From Lysobacter sp. MMG2 (GTDB lineage: Bacteria > Pseudomonadota > Gammaproteobacteria > Xanthomonadales > Xanthomonadaceae), in assembly GCF_016735495.2 (NCBI RefSeq), contig NZ_JAERQY020000001.1, forward strand, positions 310,001-374,000: a stretch of DNA of 64,000 nucleotides, read 5' to 3'. How positions within the stretch are numbered: position 1 is the first letter of the stretch; each line of letters opens with the position of its first letter. Made by a program: the position numbers and the translations under genes. Shown piece after piece: positions 42,092-63,133 of this stretch. Below the pieces are notes generated by a model. That model saw only the letters and a list, made by a program, of their open reading frames with translations, was not told the DNA's origin and did not search any database.

Positions 42092-42298
42092 CGTCATCCC
42101 GGCGAAGGCCGGGACCCAGGCTGTCACGTCATCCGCTCCATCTCGTCATTCCAGCGAAAGCTGGAATCCATATGGCTGTTCGAGGCCGGGTAAGCAGATG
42201 GACAGGCAAGAGCAACATGGATCCCAGCTTTCGCTGGGATGACGGAATGGAAGTCTTCACGCGTGACGGCCTGGGTCCCGGCCTTCGCCGGGATGACG
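42092..42298. repeat. Nested long inverted repeats (possible MITE)
   Basis: Outer arms 42092-42120 and 42270-42298 are exact 29-bp reverse complements (core CCCGGCGAAGGCCGGG). Inside, arms 42144-42170 and 42218-42244 match with two changes in 27 (core CCAGCGAAAGCTGG). Together they form a two-level cruciform of about 205 bp. The motif family GTCATCCC...GGGATGAC recurs at 48544 and 53465. Confidence 0.8.
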
Positions 42299-56459: not shown

Positions 56460-58139
56460 TCAGCCGTGGGGCGTGCAGCGGTCGAACAGGTCCAGCGTCG
56501 CGTCGTACTCCGGCGTGCGCACCTGCATCAGGCCGAGCACGGAGTGGAACAGGTTGTCCTGACTCACCGGCTCGTGGCTTTCGCGCTTCATGCAGGCGAT
56601 GTCGATGTCGCGTTCGGCCGCCATGCCGGGGGAGAGCCACATCACCATCGGCACGTGCGTCTGCGTGTCCGGCGCGATCGCGTACGGCACGCCGTGCAGG
56701 TACAGGCCGTTCTCGCCGAGCGATTCGCCGTGGTCGGACACGTAGATCAGCGCGGTGTCGCGCGCGGACTGCTCGGCGAGGAAGCGGATCGTTCGCGCGA
56801 GGAAATCATCGGTGTAGAGCACGGAGTTGTCGTAGGCGTTGACGATCTCATCGCGCGTGCAGTCGCCCAGGTCGGCCGTTTCGCAGGTCGGCGTGAAGCG
56901 GCGAAGACGCGCGGGATAGCGATGCGCGTAGCTGGGCCCGTGGCTGCCCAACTGGTGCAGCACGACCACCATGTCGCCGGGCCGACGCGCAACTTCCTCC
57001 GACAGGCCGTGCAGCATCACTTCGTCGAGGCAACCTTCGGCCGTGCAGGCCGCGGGATCGCGCGCATGCTCGAACGACTGGAACGGCAGCCCCTCGCACA
57101 CGCCCTTGCAGCCGGTCTGGTTGTCGCGCCAGAGCGTGGCGATGCCCGCGTGATCAAGCACGTTCAGCAGCGACTGTGAATGCTCGATGCGGTCCTTGTC
57201 GTAGTGCGCGCGACCATAGGGCGAGAACATGCAGGGCACCGAGACTTCCGTGGCCGAGCCGCAGGACGTCACGTCGGTGAAGTTGATCGGACCGATCGCG
57301 CGCAGCTGCGGCGTGGTCTGGCGCGCATAGCCGTTGAGACCCCAGTTCTGCGCGCGGACTGTTTCGCCCACCACCAGCACCACCAGGCGCGGCTTCGCAC
57401 TGGGCCCGCGACCGACGACGCGCGCGTTCACGCCGATGGGCGCCTTGGGTTCGTGGCGGCGTGCGCCGTCGTGCTGGAGCACGCGCACCAGCGACACGAG
57501 GTAATTGCCTGGCGTGATCAGGTGGCGGACTTCCTTGTGATTGCGCATCAGCGCGGACAGATCCTGGAACGAGACCATCATCGCCCCGCACGCCACCAGC
57601 AACGAAAGCACGATGCAGGACAACCGCACCAGCACGCCGCGCCCCATCGACCGCGGGCGCAGCCGCACGCGCCACACCAGCAGCGTCGGCACGACCCCCA
57701 GCGCCAGCAGGCTCGGCAGCATGCCCAAGGAAAGCAGCTCGCCGGACTCCTTGCCGTCGGTGTGCAGGATGTTGCGCAGCATGTCGGGGTCGAGATAGAC
57801 CGTGTACTGGCTCATGAAGTGCGCCGCCAGCGCGGTCACCGGCAACAGCACGGTCAACACCGGCCGGAACGTCCAGCGATTGAGCAGCAGGCACAGCAGC
57901 AGCATGTTCAGCGCGCCCACCATCAGCACCAGGCTGAGCGCGGTCAGCCAGCCCTTGGGCCCGTGCAGGGTGCCGGTCGCCGCCACCGCGCGGAAGAACG
58001 CGCCGTTGCAGAACACGGTGAAGAACGCGGCCACGAGGAAGGCGAGCCGTTCGACCGTCATCTCCGGTCGCAACGACGACAACCGGCGAAGGCCGCGCAG
58101 CGCCTCGTCGAAGGGACGGTGGCGGACGATCGAGCTCAT
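56460..58139 (-). CDS. eptA: Lipid A phosphoethanolamine transferase
   Basis: Adds phosphoethanolamine to lipid A and lowers polymyxin binding. 559 residues from the ATG at 58139; the frame runs on to 59876 but overlaps the PAP2 gene. Five N-terminal membrane helices (LAFLVAAFFTVFCNG, WLTALSLVLMVGALN), then a periplasmic sulfatase-like domain: VVGETVRAQNWGLNGY with metal Glu259, nucleophile Thr297 in CGSATEVSVPCMFSPYG, and YVSDHGESLGENGLYLHG. Multiple cysteines as in MCR/EptA. The start overlaps the stop of the PAP2 gene by 4 bases. Confidence 0.93.
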   Translation of the reverse strand: MSSIVRHRPFDEALRGLRRLSSLRPEMTVERLAFLVAAFFTVFCNGAFFRAVAATGTLHGPKGWLTALSLVLMVGALNMLLLCLLLNRWTFRPVLTVLLPVTALAAHFMSQYTVYLDPDMLRNILHTDGKESGELLSLGMLPSLLALGVVPTLLVWRVRLRPRSMGRGVLVRLSCIVLSLLVACGAMMVSFQDLSALMRNHKEVRHLITPGNYLVSLVRVLQHDGARRHEPKAPIGVNARVVGRGPSAKPRLVVLVVGETVRAQNWGLNGYARQTTPQLRAIGPINFTDVTSCGSATEVSVPCMFSPYGRAHYDKDRIEHSQSLLNVLDHAGIATLWRDNQTGCKGVCEGLPFQSFEHARDPAACTAEGCLDEVMLHGLSEEVARRPGDMVVVLHQLGSHGPSYAHRYPARLRRFTPTCETADLGDCTRDEIVNAYDNSVLYTDDFLARTIRFLAEQSARDTALIYVSDHGESLGENGLYLHGVPYAIAPDTQTHVPMVMWLSPGMAAERDIDIACMKRESHEPVSQDNLFHSVLGLMQVRTPEYDATLDLFDRCTPHG

Positions 58140-58954
58140 GCCGCCGCTCCCGACTGCGTGCCGAAGCAGGCCGCGAGCCAACGCGCCCGCACCAGGCGCG
58201 GTCGGAACGCCCACCACGTCGCCAGCGACACCGCCCAGCAGATCGCCGCCGTGCCGATGTCGTGCGAGACGAAATGCGCGCCGCGCAGCTGTTGCGCGAT
58301 GCCGAACATCAGACCGGCCGCGAATCCGATCGCCAACCCGGCCCAGCGCCAGCGCGGCCGCACCGCGCCGAAGAAGAAGTACAACGCGAACCACGCATAT
58401 CCACCGCTGGCGTGACCAGCGGGAAAGCACGCGCCGCGCGGCAGGCCGACCGGTCGCACCGTCCACAGTCCGATGTAGGGACGATCGCCGCCGTAGCGCA
58501 GCAGGTCCCATGGGCAGTCCATGTTCGACCAGGACTTGATCCACGCCACGCACAGCATCGACAGCGCAGTGGCGACGAGCAGGTACGCCAGCGGATCGCG
58601 CAGGTGCGACCAGGCGTCGCGTCGTTGCGAAACCACCCACGCCACCAGCAGCGTCAGCCACAGTGCGATGCCAACGTCGCGCCCCGCGCGGTGCGCGATA
58701 CCCTGCGTCAGGAAGGCGTCCCGCAGGACCCAGTGCCCACCCTGCAGCGCGTACAACCGATCGGCCAGCCACTGATCGCCACCGCCTGCCATCGCCAGCG
58801 CCAGCAGCGCGGCGACCAGCAACGCCGGCAGCACCGCATGCGTCCACACCAGACGCGGACCGTCGCCGGGTTGAAGGCTGGGCAAGGCGGAACGCGGGGT
58901 GGGTCGCGGAACCGGCGCGATGCCGGAAGTGCCGAGGGAAAACACGCTGATCAT
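58136..58954 (-). CDS. PAP2 family lipid phosphatase
   Basis: 272 residues from the ATG at 58954 (58966 also possible). Six membrane segments. Phosphatase motifs seen: KSWSNMDCPWDL (first), GACFPAGHASGGYAW (second, PSGH type), and HFVSHDIGTAAICW with His and Asp (third). Next to eptA this is probably an LpxE/LpxT-type enzyme acting on lipid A phosphate or undecaprenyl pyrophosphate. The overlap with eptA shows a single operon. It is divergent from the response regulator gene. Confidence 0.88.
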   Translation of the reverse strand: MISVFSLGTSGIAPVPRPTPRSALPSLQPGDGPRLVWTHAVLPALLVAALLALAMAGGGDQWLADRLYALQGGHWVLRDAFLTQGIAHRAGRDVGIALWLTLLVAWVVSQRRDAWSHLRDPLAYLLVATALSMLCVAWIKSWSNMDCPWDLLRYGGDRPYIGLWTVRPVGLPRGACFPAGHASGGYAWFALYFFFGAVRPRWRWAGLAIGFAAGLMFGIAQQLRGAHFVSHDIGTAAICWAVSLATWWAFRPRLVRARWLAACFGTQSGAAA

Positions 58955-59171
58955 GACTGCACGCATCGAGGGCCGATGGCCGGGAACGGTGCGAATGCTC
59001 GGGGGCGCGTCGTCGGAAACCGGTCGGACTTCGCGGCCACGGCACATCGCCGTTCATGCGTCGTTTCGCGATCAGGGCGCGGCATCGGACTCCGACAGGA
59101 TTCCCACGCGCGAAGGCGCACAATGCCGCCTCGGCGCGCCCGCGCCGTGAATCGCCGAGGACGGATCGCCC

Positions 59172-59879
59172 ATGCGCGTGCTGGTCGTTGAAGACAACCA
59201 CAACCTGGTCGCCAACCTGTTCGAGTACTTCGACGCGCGCGGCTACACGCTCGATGCCGCGCCCGACGGCCCCACCGGGCTGCACCTGGCGATCACGATG
59301 GAATTCGACGTCATCGTGCTGGACTGGATGCTGCCGCGCATGGATGGCCGCGAAGTGCTCAGCCGCCTGCGCGAAGCCGGGCGCGACACGCCGGTGCTGA
59401 TGCTCACCGCGCGCGACGAACTGCCCGACAAGATCGCCGGCTTCCGCGCCGGCGCCGACGACTACCTCACCAAACCCTTCCATCTGCCCGAGCTGGAAGT
59501 GCGGCTGGAGGCACTGGTCGCGCGCGCGCGCGGGCGCGGGCGCAACAAGGTGCTGCAGGTCGGCGACCTGCGCCTGGACACGGGCACGCTGGAGGTCACG
59601 CGCGATGGACGCCTGCTGCACCTCTACCCGGCGTGCCGCAAGCTGCTGGAAACGCTGATGCTGGCCAGTCCGGCGGCGGTCACGCGCGACCGTCTCGAAC
59701 ACGCGCTGTGGGGCGACGACCCGCCCGACGGCGACATGCTCCGCTCGCACATCTACGAACTTCGGCGCAGCGTCGACGGCCCGTTCCCGGTGAAGCTGAT
59801 CCAGACCCTGCCGCGCGTGGGCTATCGCATCGTCGCATCGGCCAGCACCTCCTCCAATGAGCAGGAAGCGCTGCAATGA
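59172..59879 (+). CDS. OmpR-family response regulator (PmrA/QseB-like)
   Basis: 235 residues. Receiver: VVEDNHNLVANLF, phosphoacceptor Asp in VIVLDWMLPRMDG, MLTARDELPDKIAGF, Lys in YLTKPF. C-terminal winged helix: VTRDRLEHALWGDDPPDGDMLRSHIYELRRSV and TLPRVGYRIVA. GAGGA upstream. The stop overlaps the kinase start (ATGA). Divergent from PAP2-eptA, which it likely controls. I see no CTTAAT-type PmrA box in the gap. Confidence 0.9.
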   Translation: MRVLVVEDNHNLVANLFEYFDARGYTLDAAPDGPTGLHLAITMEFDVIVLDWMLPRMDGREVLSRLREAGRDTPVLMLTARDELPDKIAGFRAGADDYLTKPFHLPELEVRLEALVARARGRGRNKVLQVGDLRLDTGTLEVTRDGRLLHLYPACRKLLETLMLASPAAVTRDRLEHALWGDDPPDGDMLRSHIYELRRSVDGPFPVKLIQTLPRVGYRIVASASTSSNEQEALQ

Positions 59880-61147
59880 GCAAGACCCGGTCCGGCCTGC
59901 GCCGGCGCATCCTGCTGGCGTTGTTCGGCTATGTGGTGGTGTTGAGCGTCGCGGTGGTCGTGCACGGTTTCGTGGTCAACGAACACGCCGAACGGCTGGT
60001 CTGGCAGACGCTGCTCGATTCGGAAATGGACCATCTGCTCGAACTGCGCCGACAGGACCCCGGTTACCGCTGGACGAACACGCGCAGCATCGCGCTCTAC
60101 GACGGACGCGATCCGCGCGATGTGCCCGCACCGCTGCGCGGCGTCGCGCCGGGCGTGTACGACGAGATCATCCTCGACGGCGTGGAGCGCGTCGCGCTAG
60201 TGCGCCAAGTCGATGGACGTCCGCTGATCCTCGCCCTGGACATCACCGACCTGGAGGAACGCGAGTTCGACATGGGGCTGACGGTCGTCGGCTCCGCTGT
60301 GACCTTGATCGCGCTGCTCGGCATCGCCATCGCCTGGAGCGTGAACCGCCTCGTCCGCCCCCTTCGCGACATGGCGCAGGCCATCGCGGCACTGCGTCCC
60401 GACCAGTCGGGGCAGCGCATCCACGCGTCGCCGTCGGCGAGCTCCGAGCTGGTGGTGATCGCCGACGCGCTCAACGACTACCTGCAGCGCAATGACCGCT
60501 TCGTCGAACGCGAGCGCGTGTTCATCGACAGCGCCAGCCACGAGCTGCGCACACCCGTGGCGGTGATCGGCGGCGCGGCGGAGAACGCCTTGCAGCAACC
60601 GCACTTGCCCGACGCCGTGCGCGGCCAGCTCATGCGCATCCAGCGCACCACGCGCGAGGTGGAGCAACTGGTCTCGCTGCTGCTGGTGCTGGCGAAGGAT
60701 CCCGCGCGACTGGCGCGTTCGAACGATCGCGTCGAGCTGGATCAGCTGATTCCCGAGATCGTCGAGGACCATCGCCACCTCACGCGCGACAAGGACCTTC
60801 GCCTCGACATCGTCGCCCTGCCCGCGTGTGAGATCCTGGCGCCGCTGCCCATCGTGCAGGCGGCCATCGGCAATCTGCTGCGCAACGCGATCGAGCACAG
60901 CGATCGCGGGCGCATCACGATCCGGCTGGAGACGCCGGCAACGGTGATCATCGACGATCCGGGCCACGGCATGACGCCGGAGGAAATCGCGCAGATCTAT
61001 GCACGCGTCGCGCGCGGCGGCGGACGCGACGGCGGCGGCATCGGCCTGGATCTCATCTCGCGACTGTGCGAACACCTGGGCTGGAAGCTCGACATCGCTT
61101 CGGACGAAGGCCGCGGCACCACGACGACGTTGCGGATGGGGAACTGA
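59876..61147 (+). CDS. Sensor histidine kinase (PmrB-like)
   Basis: 423 residues. Two membrane segments (ILLALFGYVVVLSVAVVVHGF and LTVVGSAVTLIALLGIAIAW) flank a periplasmic domain of about 130 residues. HAMP region follows, HisKA with SASHELRTPVAVIGG, then HATPase: NLLRNAIEHS, IDDPGHGMTPEE, GGIGLDLISRL. The periplasmic loop lacks an obvious ExxE iron motif. Cotranscribed with the regulator. Probably responds to envelope signals and drives lipid A change through eptA. Confidence 0.9.
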   Translation: MSKTRSGLRRRILLALFGYVVVLSVAVVVHGFVVNEHAERLVWQTLLDSEMDHLLELRRQDPGYRWTNTRSIALYDGRDPRDVPAPLRGVAPGVYDEIILDGVERVALVRQVDGRPLILALDITDLEEREFDMGLTVVGSAVTLIALLGIAIAWSVNRLVRPLRDMAQAIAALRPDQSGQRIHASPSASSELVVIADALNDYLQRNDRFVERERVFIDSASHELRTPVAVIGGAAENALQQPHLPDAVRGQLMRIQRTTREVEQLVSLLLVLAKDPARLARSNDRVELDQLIPEIVEDHRHLTRDKDLRLDIVALPACEILAPLPIVQAAIGNLLRNAIEHSDRGRITIRLETPATVIIDDPGHGMTPEEIAQIYARVARGGGRDGGGIGLDLISRLCEHLGWKLDIASDEGRGTTTTLRMGN

Positions 61148-61151
61148 TCTC

Positions 61152-61175
61152 CCTCCCCCTGCTCGCAGGGGGAGG
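61152..61175. terminator. Hairpin between convergent kinase and CMD genes
   Basis: Ten-bp perfect stem CCTCCCCCTG / CAGGGGGAGG with a CTCG loop, 5 bases after the kinase stop and 17 before the end of the convergent CMD gene. No long T-run follows, so it may be a weak bidirectional terminator. Confidence 0.45.
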
Positions 61176-61192
61176 AAGAACTGCCTCGCGGC

Positions 61193-61642
61193 TTAGGCCT
61201 CCGGCAGCGGCTTGCGCAGACCGACGTTGAGCACGTTCCAGGCGCGGATCGCGGCGACGGCGAAGGTCAGCTCGGACAGCTCACGCTCGTCGAAGTGCGC
61301 GCGCACCTGGTCCAGCGCCTCGTCCGGCACCTGCGCGGCACCGATGGCGTTGAGCGTTTCGGCCCAGCCCAGCGCGGCGCGCTCGCGCGCGTCGAACAGC
61401 GGGCTCTCGCGCCACGCGGCCAGCGTGTCGAGCTTGCGCTGGCTTTCGCCCATCTTGCGCAGCAGCACGCAATGCATGTCCAGGCAGTACACGCAGCCGT
61501 TGATCTGCGACACGCGCAGCGAGACCAGCTCGACCAGCTTGCTGCCCAGCGGGCCCTTGTGCAGGCCGGTGCTGAGCTTGAGCAGATGCTGGAAAGCCTC
61601 CGAGGCGTGGACGGTGTAGTCGATATGGGTGGCAGCGTTCAT
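61193..61642 (-). CDS. Carboxymuconolactone decarboxylase/AhpD family protein, ECF41 partner
   Basis: 149 residues. The AhpD-type site is complete: INGCVYCLDMHCVLLRKMGE (CxxC plus His), with WRESPLFDARERAALGWAETL. A third Cys follows the His (MHCVLL). It lies next to the ECF41 sigma gene, and CMD-like proteins are one of the three known ECF41 partner types (COE). An ECF41-type promoter is at 61689-61715, 47 bases upstream of the start. Thiol redox or peroxide role likely; substrate unknown. Confidence 0.92.
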   Translation of the reverse strand: MNAATHIDYTVHASEAFQHLLKLSTGLHKGPLGSKLVELVSLRVSQINGCVYCLDMHCVLLRKMGESQRKLDTLAAWRESPLFDARERAALGWAETLNAIGAAQVPDEALDQVRAHFDERELSELTFAVAAIRAWNVLNVGLRKPLPEA

Positions 61643-61688
61643 GGTCGTCTCTCATGTTGGCGGCCACGACGGCCGCTTCATGTACAAG

Positions 61689-61715
61689 GACGAGCGTGGG
61701 CTCCGTCCTGTGACA
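61689..61715 (-). promoter_or_regulatory. ECF41-type promoter of the CMD gene
   Basis: On the minus strand, TGTCACA (61715-61709), 16 bases, then CGTC (61692-61689). This equals the ECF41 consensus TGTCACA-N16-CGTC as I recall it. The CMD start codon is at 61642, giving a leader of about 40 bases. Confidence 0.85.
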
Positions 61716-61733
61716 ACCCAGGCGAACGATTTC

Positions 61734-62603
61734 CTAGTGCAATGCACGCAGCTTGTCGGGGTTGAGCACCGACAGCACCTGGTCGATGCGGCCTTCGTCA
61801 TCGAGCGAGACGGTGATGATCGAATGCAGCACGCCGTTCTCGAAGCGCAGCAGTGCCGGCTCGCCGTTGACGTGGCCCAGGTGCAGGTCGGCCAGGCCTT
61901 CGGTGCGGCGCGCGACGGCCCAGAAAAGATCCGCGATGCGCTGCGCGCTCTCCAGAGGACGCGCGACCGCCGTGGCCTTGCCGCCACCGTCGGCCACCAT
62001 GCGCGCGTCGGCGCGCAGCAGCGCGACGATGGCGTCGCGATCGCCGTGCTGCATGGCGTGCATGAAGCGTTCGAGCATGCGCCGGTGCATGTCCGGTTCG
62101 ACGCTGAAACGCTGGCGATCGCTTTGCACGCGCGTGCGTGCGCGGCTCACCATCTGCCGGCAGTTCGCCTCGGTGTGTCCGAGCAGTTCGGCGATTTGCG
62201 GGTAGTCGTAATCGAACACGTCCTTGAGCAGGAACGCGGCGCGCTCTTCGGGGCCGAGCTTCTCGAGCACGGCGAGATAGGCCAGCGAAACCTGCCCGGC
62301 GATGTCGGCCTGCTGCTCCGGGCCGGGCGTGTCGTCGATGGTCAACGGCTCCGGCAGCCAGGGGCCCGGGTAGACCTCGCGCTCCTTGCGCGCCTGGCGC
62401 AGGCGGTCGATGCCCAGCCGCGTGGTGGCCGTGACCAGCCACGCCTCCAGGTCGCGGATCTCCGAGCGGTCGGCCTGGTGCCAGCGCAGCCAGGCGTCCT
62501 GGACGACCTCCTCGGCGTCGCTGCGGCTGCCCAGCAGCCGGTACGCCAGCGCGAACAGGCGCGGGCGGTGGGTTTCGAAGGCGGTGTCGGGCGTGGCGGA
62601 CAT
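61734..62603 (-). CDS. ECF41-family RNA polymerase sigma factor (SigJ-like)
   Basis: 289 residues from the ATG at 62603. Sigma region 2: FALAYRLLGSRSDAEEVVQDAWLRW; region 4: LKDVFDYDYPQIAELLGHTEANCRQMVSRAR. A SnoaL-like C-terminal domain follows (about 175-289), which in this group replaces an anti-sigma factor. The diagnostic ECF41 motifs are both present: VADGGGKATA and, near the very end, VLNPDKLRALH. Directs polymerase to the promoters at 61689 and probably 62637. Signal unknown in the family. Confidence 0.93.
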   Translation of the reverse strand: MSATPDTAFETHRPRLFALAYRLLGSRSDAEEVVQDAWLRWHQADRSEIRDLEAWLVTATTRLGIDRLRQARKEREVYPGPWLPEPLTIDDTPGPEQQADIAGQVSLAYLAVLEKLGPEERAAFLLKDVFDYDYPQIAELLGHTEANCRQMVSRARTRVQSDRQRFSVEPDMHRRMLERFMHAMQHGDRDAIVALLRADARMVADGGGKATAVARPLESAQRIADLFWAVARRTEGLADLHLGHVNGEPALLRFENGVLHSIITVSLDDEGRIDQVLSVLNPDKLRALH

Positions 62604-62636
62604 GGGGGAGTAGAATCGGGGAAGCCTACTTTCAAG

Positions 62637-62663
62637 GACGGACGAAGGACGGGATCCGTGACA
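62637..62663 (-). promoter_or_regulatory. ECF41-type promoter upstream of the sigma gene
   Basis: Minus strand TGTCACG (62663-62657), 16 bases, CGTC (62640-62637): one mismatch to the recalled consensus and exact spacing. It lies 33 bases upstream of the sigma start, suggesting autoregulation. Confidence 0.65.
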
Positions 62664-62713
62664 TCCACCGCCCGCTCGAGCGGCGATGCTGGGCCGTCCG
62701 ATGTCCCTGCCCG

Positions 62714-63133
62714 TCAGGGCTCGACCTTCGCCGGATCGGGAAGCTTCAGGTCGAAGCACTGCCTCCCACGCGGGTGCCGCCACTGGCCGCCCACGTCCCG
62801 CTCGGCCGTGTCGCTATCGAACATCGCGCACAGCCGGTAGCGACGGGCGCCCAGCACTTCGTATTCGTACGGCCGCGACGTGAAGGGATCGCGCATCGCC
62901 GGACGCGAGCCGGGGCGAGCCAGCGCGGACAAATTCGGCGGCAGCGCCTCGTTCCGCTCGGCCCAGATTTCGATGTCCACCTTCAGGCTGATCAGGTCGC
63001 GTTCGCGTCGTTCGTCCTGCCGCAACAGCCGCTGCTGCGCCGGCGTTCCGATCGCCACGATCGCCGCGATCACCGCCCCCGCAACCACCACGCCTGCCCC
63101 GACCAGCAGCCAGCGTCCCGCTGCGGCGCTCAT
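62714..63133 (-). CDS. Hypothetical membrane-anchored protein
   Basis: 139 residues. One N-terminal membrane helix (LLVGAGVVVAGAVIAAIVAI), then a charged helix DERRERDLISLKVDIEIWAE. Next come RNEALPPNLSALARPG and an aromatic strand region (PYEYEVLGARRYRLCAMFD). The anchor-helix-beta layout resembles pseudopilins but no prepilin cleavage site is seen. The start overlaps the stop of the next gene (ATGA), so the pair is one operon. Confidence 0.75.
   Translation of the reverse strand: MSAAAGRWLLVGAGVVVAGAVIAAIVAIGTPAQQRLLRQDERRERDLISLKVDIEIWAERNEALPPNLSALARPGSRPAMRDPFTSRPYEYEVLGARRYRLCAMFDSDTAERDVGGQWRHPRGRQCFDLKLPDPAKVEP

Follow-up and report, generated by a model that had tools for sequence, protein, structure and literature searches.

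We suggest that a sigma factor of group ECF41 in Lysobacter sp. MMG2 controls its own gene along with that of its neighbour, a carboxymuconolactone decarboxylase (CMD). Both genes lie in the stretch of 64 kb analysed here (the window), and because a matching recognition sequence precedes each of them, the switch probably turns itself on; judged from sequence, autoregulation of the sigma gene is likely. Autoregulation as such is not a new idea and is already known for some relatives. Positions of the features discussed are given in Table 1.

Table 1. Features of the ECF41-CMD locus, in coordinates of the window
Feature	Position	Strand	Basis or remark
Predicted ECF41 promoter of sigma gene, TGTCACG-N16-CGTC	62663-62637	minus	sequence match
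Predicted 25-nt leader of sigma mRNA	62604..62628	minus	start taken as 9th nt after CGTC
ECF41 sigma factor gene, 289 aa	61734..62603 (stop codon 61734-61736)	minus	TIGR02957, PRK09636, PDB 5xe7
Predicted ECF41 promoter of CMD gene, TGTCACA-N16-CGTC	61715-61689	minus	sequence match
Inverted repeat in CMD leader, GCGGCC-GTCGT-GGCCGC	61660..61676	minus	begins at about +5 of predicted mRNA
CMD/AhpD-like gene, 149 aa, CVYC motif, predicted target	61193..61642	minus	PF02627, TIGR00778, PDB 2o4d

Sequence comparison supports well both the ECF41 identity of the sigma factor and the presence of two cognate promoter motifs. The sigma reading frame is uninterrupted and its product scores above the cut-offs of TIGR02957 (336.4 bits, cut-off 323.25) and PRK09636 SigJ (316.1 bits, cut-off 271). 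Sigma regions 2 and 4 are present and no other (PF04542 at residues 9-73, PF08281 at 108-158), and the linker reads PGPWLPEPL, which contains the WLPEP motif named as an ECF41 feature by Wecke 2012 (PMC3426412). Region 4 is followed by an extension of 131 aa, the expectation for the group being about 100 aa of SnoaL-like character. Pfam reports no SnoaL domain in the protein at E 0.001, so the SnoaL-like fold of the extension rests on the match to M. tuberculosis SigJ (PDB 5xe7), which is homologous over residues 7-284 of 289 (E 1.3e-49). The initial annotation found both diagnostic C-terminal motifs; the letters DGGGK and NPDKL are indeed there in the C-terminal part, and we take both to be names of ECF41 extension motifs. 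The excerpt of Wecke 2012 (PMC3426412) speaks of three motifs in the extension, with no names given in that passage, and the term DGGGK does not occur in the text consulted. The ECF41 proteins of B. licheniformis and R. sphaeroides share with the Lysobacter protein the sigma2-sigma4 arrangement, the long C-terminal extension and the WLPEP linker, and their loci share the CMD neighbour and the TGTCACA -35 element at CMD (PMC3426412). In the window, the CMD gene (PF02627), the neighbour expected of an ECF41 gene, adjoins 91 nt downstream, and the expected target promoter TGTCACA-N16-CGTC is recognised by sequence match alone. The nearest named relatives are L. soli (81%) and L. arvi (80%), in a search that may omit records very near the own genome. 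Inspected for an anti-sigma gene, the surroundings of the pair show a two-component system, a DUF5671 gene and one further gene to which Pfam assigns no family; to our knowledge, obvious anti-sigma factors are lacking for ECF41 sigmas.

The CMD reading frame is likewise uninterrupted. Its product reaches 73.5 bits against PF02627 (cut-off 23) and 60.3 bits against TIGR00778 (cut-off 27.8), and has four matches in PDB (7xw1, 2ijc, 2gmy and 2o4d, the last being PA0269, E 6.7e-37). Presumably the protein acts as a peroxidase or disulfide reductase. In B. cenocepacia, a CMD gene is induced by hypochlorite (PMC2830190). The CMD stop codon is separated by 45 nt from the end of a plus-strand gene pair for a response regulator and a histidine kinase (59172-61147). 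A minus-strand gene for an EptA-like phosphoethanolamine transferase (PF08019 and PF00884) lies near this pair, all three genes being within 56460-61147.

Both motifs reported by the initial annotation, TGTCACA-N16-CGTC at the partner gene and TGTCACG-N16-CGTC at the sigma gene, are letter-exact. Along the minus strand the order is sigma-gene motif, sigma gene, CMD motif, CMD gene, with 33 nt from the end of the first motif to the sigma ATG and 46 nt from the end of the second to the CMD gene. The pattern TGTCACR-N16-CGTC occurs twice in the window versus 0.19 expected matches, and at least two matches arose in 1 of 100 shuffles of the window. In the entire genome (4.17 Mb) there are three copies of TGTCACA-N16-CGTC and five sites of TGTCACN-N16-CGTC, two of these five being at the ECF41-CMD locus. 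Position 7 at the sigma promoter is G, not A, and G is common there in relatives (41 of 58 loci with dual motifs). The spacers of the two promoters are little alike (38% in the window); over 58 loci, spacer identity is 46% within loci versus 41% between loci.

Conservation supports both promoters. We counted a motif as strict when TGTCACN-N16-CGTC was located at most 120 nt upstream of the sigma match or at most 150 nt upstream of CMD. Among 247 genomes drawn from the family, an orthologue was detected at E 1e-90 in 62, spanning 14 of 54 genera, with no match at this threshold in the other 185; one extra locus from the genus (L043) brings the Lysobacteraceae set to 63 loci. The strict sigma-gene motif precedes 61 of the 63, and the two misses agree at 9 of 11 positions. 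CMD is the neighbour in 62 of 63, the strict CMD motif is present in 60 of these 62 and both motifs in 58. For comparison, random 120-nt windows elsewhere in 143 loci matched in 16 of 35,380 cases. Two of the loci (L004 and L039) are from one species and have identical sigma proteins.

As a second set we took the best 80 of 188 loci, namely 13 of Lysobacter/Stenotrophomonas type and 67 others; four of its members (L079, L080, L081, L087) share promoters with members of the first set (L040, L043, L044, L174). Within these best 80, the Lysobacter/Stenotrophomonas-type loci carry the sigma-gene motif in 12 of 13 and the CMD motif in 13 of 13 cases. The 67 distant loci, mostly Burkholderiales by title, have the strict sigma-gene motif in 48 and lack it in 19; 58 of them possess CMD, with the CMD motif in 47 and both motifs in 38. 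Several of the misses among distant loci are CGTCACA variants. Wider searches at E 1e-60, with own and family genomes included, gave matches in 7 of 369 genomes of the class and in 22 of 398 of the phylum. The resulting 21 loci outside the family show the exact sigma-gene motif in five (one of which, L200, has promoters identical to those of L100 in the other set) and agreement at 9 or more of 11 positions in seven. Five out-of-family loci without sigma-gene motif have CMD upstream of sigma, with 10 or 11 of 11 positions of the CMD motif, and these CMD-first loci resemble the published operon layout. Further, no strict sigma-gene motif was detected among 11 other ECF41 loci of the same genus. 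Because most of the 21 loci from the class and phylum searches are devoid of the sigma-gene motif, the dual promoter is a property of this part of ECF41, not of all. Two records deserve mention in their own right. In a record labelled Betaproteobacteria MAG (L118:2941-4384), a cupin gene (PF07883) adjoins the ECF41 sigma gene and both genes have the exact motif; no CMD was found at this locus. A record that bears the title Bacillus subtilis strain SK7B5 (L085) contains a Stenotrophomonas-like ECF41 locus and is probably mislabelled or contaminated.

The initial annotation took the second motif as a hint of autoregulation and considered this untypical of ECF41. The motif is there and conserved, and autoregulation is its best reading. 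The second statement holds in part: in loci of the same layout (>ECF> >COE>), Wecke 2012 (PMC3426412) found the sigma gene preceded by the motif in 14 of 53, whereas among Lysobacteraceae this is the rule. The same study lists the sigma-gene motif in 36 of 55 <ECF< >COE> loci and in 38 of 126 orphan loci, and the motif at both genes in 20% of cases where the sigma gene is upstream. These counts imply ECF41 autoregulation, and the Lysobacter locus is thus a member of that class.

Which sigma factor reads the two promoters can be answered with considerable confidence from the sequence: very probably it is the ECF41 factor encoded between them. In two species, promoters of CMD genes whose -35 element is TGTCACA are activated by ECF41 sigmas (PMC3426412). 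A quite improbable alternative is that the sigma-gene promoter is read mainly by some other ECF sigma, for example by the second ECF41 of the genome (C6:105762), whose 46% identity makes it a conceivable candidate, all the more as members of group ECF41 are said to share a -35 consensus (PMC3426412). This second factor, however, has no strict motif at its own gene, and two genomes (G003 and G011) retain both motifs despite having a single ECF41 match at E 1e-40, a comparison that covers ECF41 matches at this threshold. The second ECF41 gene itself (C6:105744-106625; L005, L006) adjoins a cupin-domain gene. Nearby are a gene of LysR-type appearance and a short segment that is similar to sigma region 4 (41% over 58 aa) and may be what is left of another ECF41 gene.

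Two matching promoters in a row raise the question of how the genes are transcribed. Sigma and CMD have the same orientation and a gap of 91 nt, an arrangement of order and orientation shared by 58 of 62 family loci, and one may imagine a single operon in which the sigma promoter drives both genes, with the CMD promoter contributing a minor start inside it. We regard this as rather unlikely. The CMD motif is conserved about as well as the sigma-gene motif, and in B. licheniformis the ydfG transcript is of monocistronic size (Wecke 2012, PMC3426412). Moreover, in four of the 62 family loci, all from the same genus (L040, L041, L042 and L043), CMD is convergent with sigma, and all four keep the CMD motif where the gene is inverted. 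As the sigma promoter cannot read CMD there, the kept motif points to two separately activated units. Sigma and CMD genes are therefore probably in the main two transcription units, not one operon, perhaps with read-through on top of the two promoters. Compared with the collinear locus L044, the four convergent loci have about 0.5 kb inverted in place, while their flanks remain collinear. This inversion looks evolutionary; an invertible element was considered and rejected, as none of the 25 longest inverted repeats (of 71 in the region 61000-62800) forms a long near-perfect pair around CMD.

Published systems differ from this organization. For B. licheniformis and R. sphaeroides, the excerpts of PMC3426412 show no separate promoter of the sigma gene, whereas the Lysobacter sigma gene has a motif of its own; for R. 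sphaeroides a bicistronic operon was proposed. S. meliloti RpoE9 (ECF41) and SMb20029 are alike in that the latter, a CMD gene, is the single target found (PMC6180224, PMC3616915), but CMD is upstream of sigma there, in one likely operon with a single start, in contrast to the Lysobacter order of sigma, then CMD, with two motifs.

The two promoters, similar as they are, may in many relatives give rise to dissimilar messages. To compare leaders, the first in-frame ATG after the -10 element was taken as start. The sigma ATG lies 8-9 nt after -10 in 51 of 52 family loci from outside Lysobacter and in 40 of 48 distant loci of the best 80 of 188; the remaining distant loci have it at 10 nt (three), 2 nt (two) and 24-64 nt (three). 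In S. meliloti the ECF41 motif is 9 nt upstream of a start found by RNA-seq (PMC3616915). The sigma ATG would then be at +1 or +2, and we predict from these distances that the sigma mRNA is leaderless in non-Lysobacter relatives, a leaderless mRNA being one with 5' UTR under 5 nt (PMC7563307). Homology to the window sigma begins 3-29 nt after the motif in non-Lysobacter family loci, which leaves little room for a later start codon. The assumed start fits the CMD leaders: G occupies the 9th nt after CGTC in 47 of the 60 leaders from the family and in 39 of the 47 remaining ones, in agreement with the G mapped as ECF41 start nucleotide by Wecke 2012 (PMC3426412).

The sigma gene of the window does not belong among the leaderless ones, having its ATG 33 nt after -10; no Shine-Dalgarno sequence was seen by eye in its predicted 25-nt leader. 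Nine loci of the same genus fall into six (L004, L039-L042, L044) with the sigma ATG at 30-33 nt and three (L043, L045, L046) with ATG at 8 nt. A quick FastTree phylogeny of 140 rows requires 6 changes in the state of the sigma leader over 118 rows, 108 of them with 10 nt or less and 10 with more. For CMD, the distance from -10 to the first ATG is 29-49 nt in 40 of the 52 family loci from outside Lysobacter and 34-60 nt in 45 of the 47 other loci; the remaining short values (4-18 nt) may be chance ATGs within the leader. Our literature search found no description of a leaderless ECF41 gene. The leader architecture is thus undescribed as far as we found and may be in print elsewhere, whereas the system itself is of known kind.

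We hypothesize that the matching promoters of the ECF41 switch yield messages of two different structures, namely a leaderless sigma mRNA and a leadered target mRNA, the latter beginning with a conserved hairpin in Lysobacteraceae. We propose this tentatively, at slightly less than even chances, for Lysobacteraceae and many betaproteobacterial relatives.

The hairpin part is based on the inverted repeat of the CMD leader, a further difference from B. licheniformis and R. sphaeroides, whose leaders are 22/23 nt long (PMC3426412). We aligned 66 distinct leaders, from 73 Lysobacteraceae loci with strict CMD motif, by MAFFT without structure; the stem was chosen on the same 66 sequences, and the covariation counts ignore relatedness. 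In this alignment, 91.5% of cells of the 7-bp stem are paired, 23 stem cells are changed on both sides versus 7.2 in shuffles, and covariation amounts to 0.168 versus 0.097, the last two values being reached by 0 of 500 shuffles. Weaker signals are four stem pairs with double-sided change (reached by 14 of 500 shuffles) and nine further pair types (32 of 500). Six slid versions of the stem are all lower in paired cells, doubly changed cells and covariation; slid version -3 equals the real stem in number of pairs with double change. Stems of at least 6 bp are present in 51 of 60 family CMD leaders versus 5 of 60 shuffled, and for 39 of the 66 leaders the fold is better than that of shuffles (p 0.05). 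The two Rfam matches are both far below gathering score.

The repeat could also be a DNA operator for a repressor instead of an mRNA hairpin, since compensatory changes fit a DNA palindrome as well and the inner GGCC arms hardly vary. The lowest-energy fold of 61684-61630 also uses other pairs than the simple hairpin (z -1.56), and RNAalifold returns a weak, partial stem. On the other hand, the outer arm letters vary with pairing mostly kept, the loop varies in length, and 46 of the 51 stems begin 12-13 nt after -10, that is, at +4 or +5 of the predicted mRNA. All in all, we consider an operator somewhat less likely, and a hairpin is our tentative reading of the Lysobacteraceae leaders. Burkholderiales-type CMD leaders have mean z -0.26 with 3 of 46 at p 0.05, and local stems of at least 6 bp in 7 of 47 versus 3 of 47 shuffled; stems of at least 7 Watson-Crick pairs, with no short loop limit, are present in 35% versus 5% of shuffles. 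As these tests disagree, other hairpins in such leaders were set aside and the hairpin is claimed for Lysobacteraceae only.

The genome scan for further matches, proposed in the initial annotation, yielded three other sites with 16-nt spacing and, in place of a firm regulon member, one lead. One site (L032) was rejected since its motif is inside a large ORF, another (L002) since the next ORFs listed for its strand are 270-343 nt away. The third (L003, C6:276873-276899) matches TGTCACA-N16-CGTC exactly and lies 68 nt before a gene that, judged by eye, is similar to the isocitrate lyase/PEP mutase family. The corresponding strict motif is present in 4 of 12 genomes of the genus (the own one, G009, G007 and G008; one locus, L224, could not be oriented). 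In the window genome the motif and the 3' end of the preceding ORF overlap, and the site therefore counts as no more than a lead. With spacers of 15-17 nt, the pattern has 41 sites in the genome, 28 forward and 13 reverse; these were set aside because a dispersed repeat, mostly of 15-nt spacing, swells the count. This GC-rich repeat (window 42122-42147 and elsewhere) consists of short inverted repeats CCCGGCGAAGGCCGGG and ATTCCAGCGAAAGCTGGAAT around TGTCACG-N15-CGTC. At least 17 sites carry the repeat flanks, 15 with spacer 15 and two with spacer 17 (forward strand, 30 sites scanned). As the repeat mimics the ECF41 motif mostly at spacer 15, spacing matters for the genome scan.

The probable course of events is as follows. 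A signal would relieve the inhibition by the C-terminal SnoaL-like extension and free the sigma core. The released sigma would initiate both transcripts, that of its own gene and that of CMD. Its level would climb by positive feedback, resulting in a sharp rise, and CMD would rise too; with its CxxC motif, CMD could then act on peroxides or disulfides. Control by the C-terminal extension was tested in B. licheniformis, and we infer it for Lysobacter, along with promoter activity and feedback.

Taken together, the conserved own promoter would make positive feedback the default in the ECF41 family of Lysobacteraceae. Post-transcriptional or repressor control of CMD, the ECF41 target known best, may work through the compensated repeat of its leader, a concrete candidate element. 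If the leaderless start of sigma is indeed fixed, it would add a translational layer to ECF41 control. The Lysobacter subgroup that includes the window, with a leadered sigma gene and the predicted CMD hairpin kept, provides a natural test pair. If the two messages are indeed so unlike, feedback and output would be translated and degraded under different rules, for example during ribosome stress.
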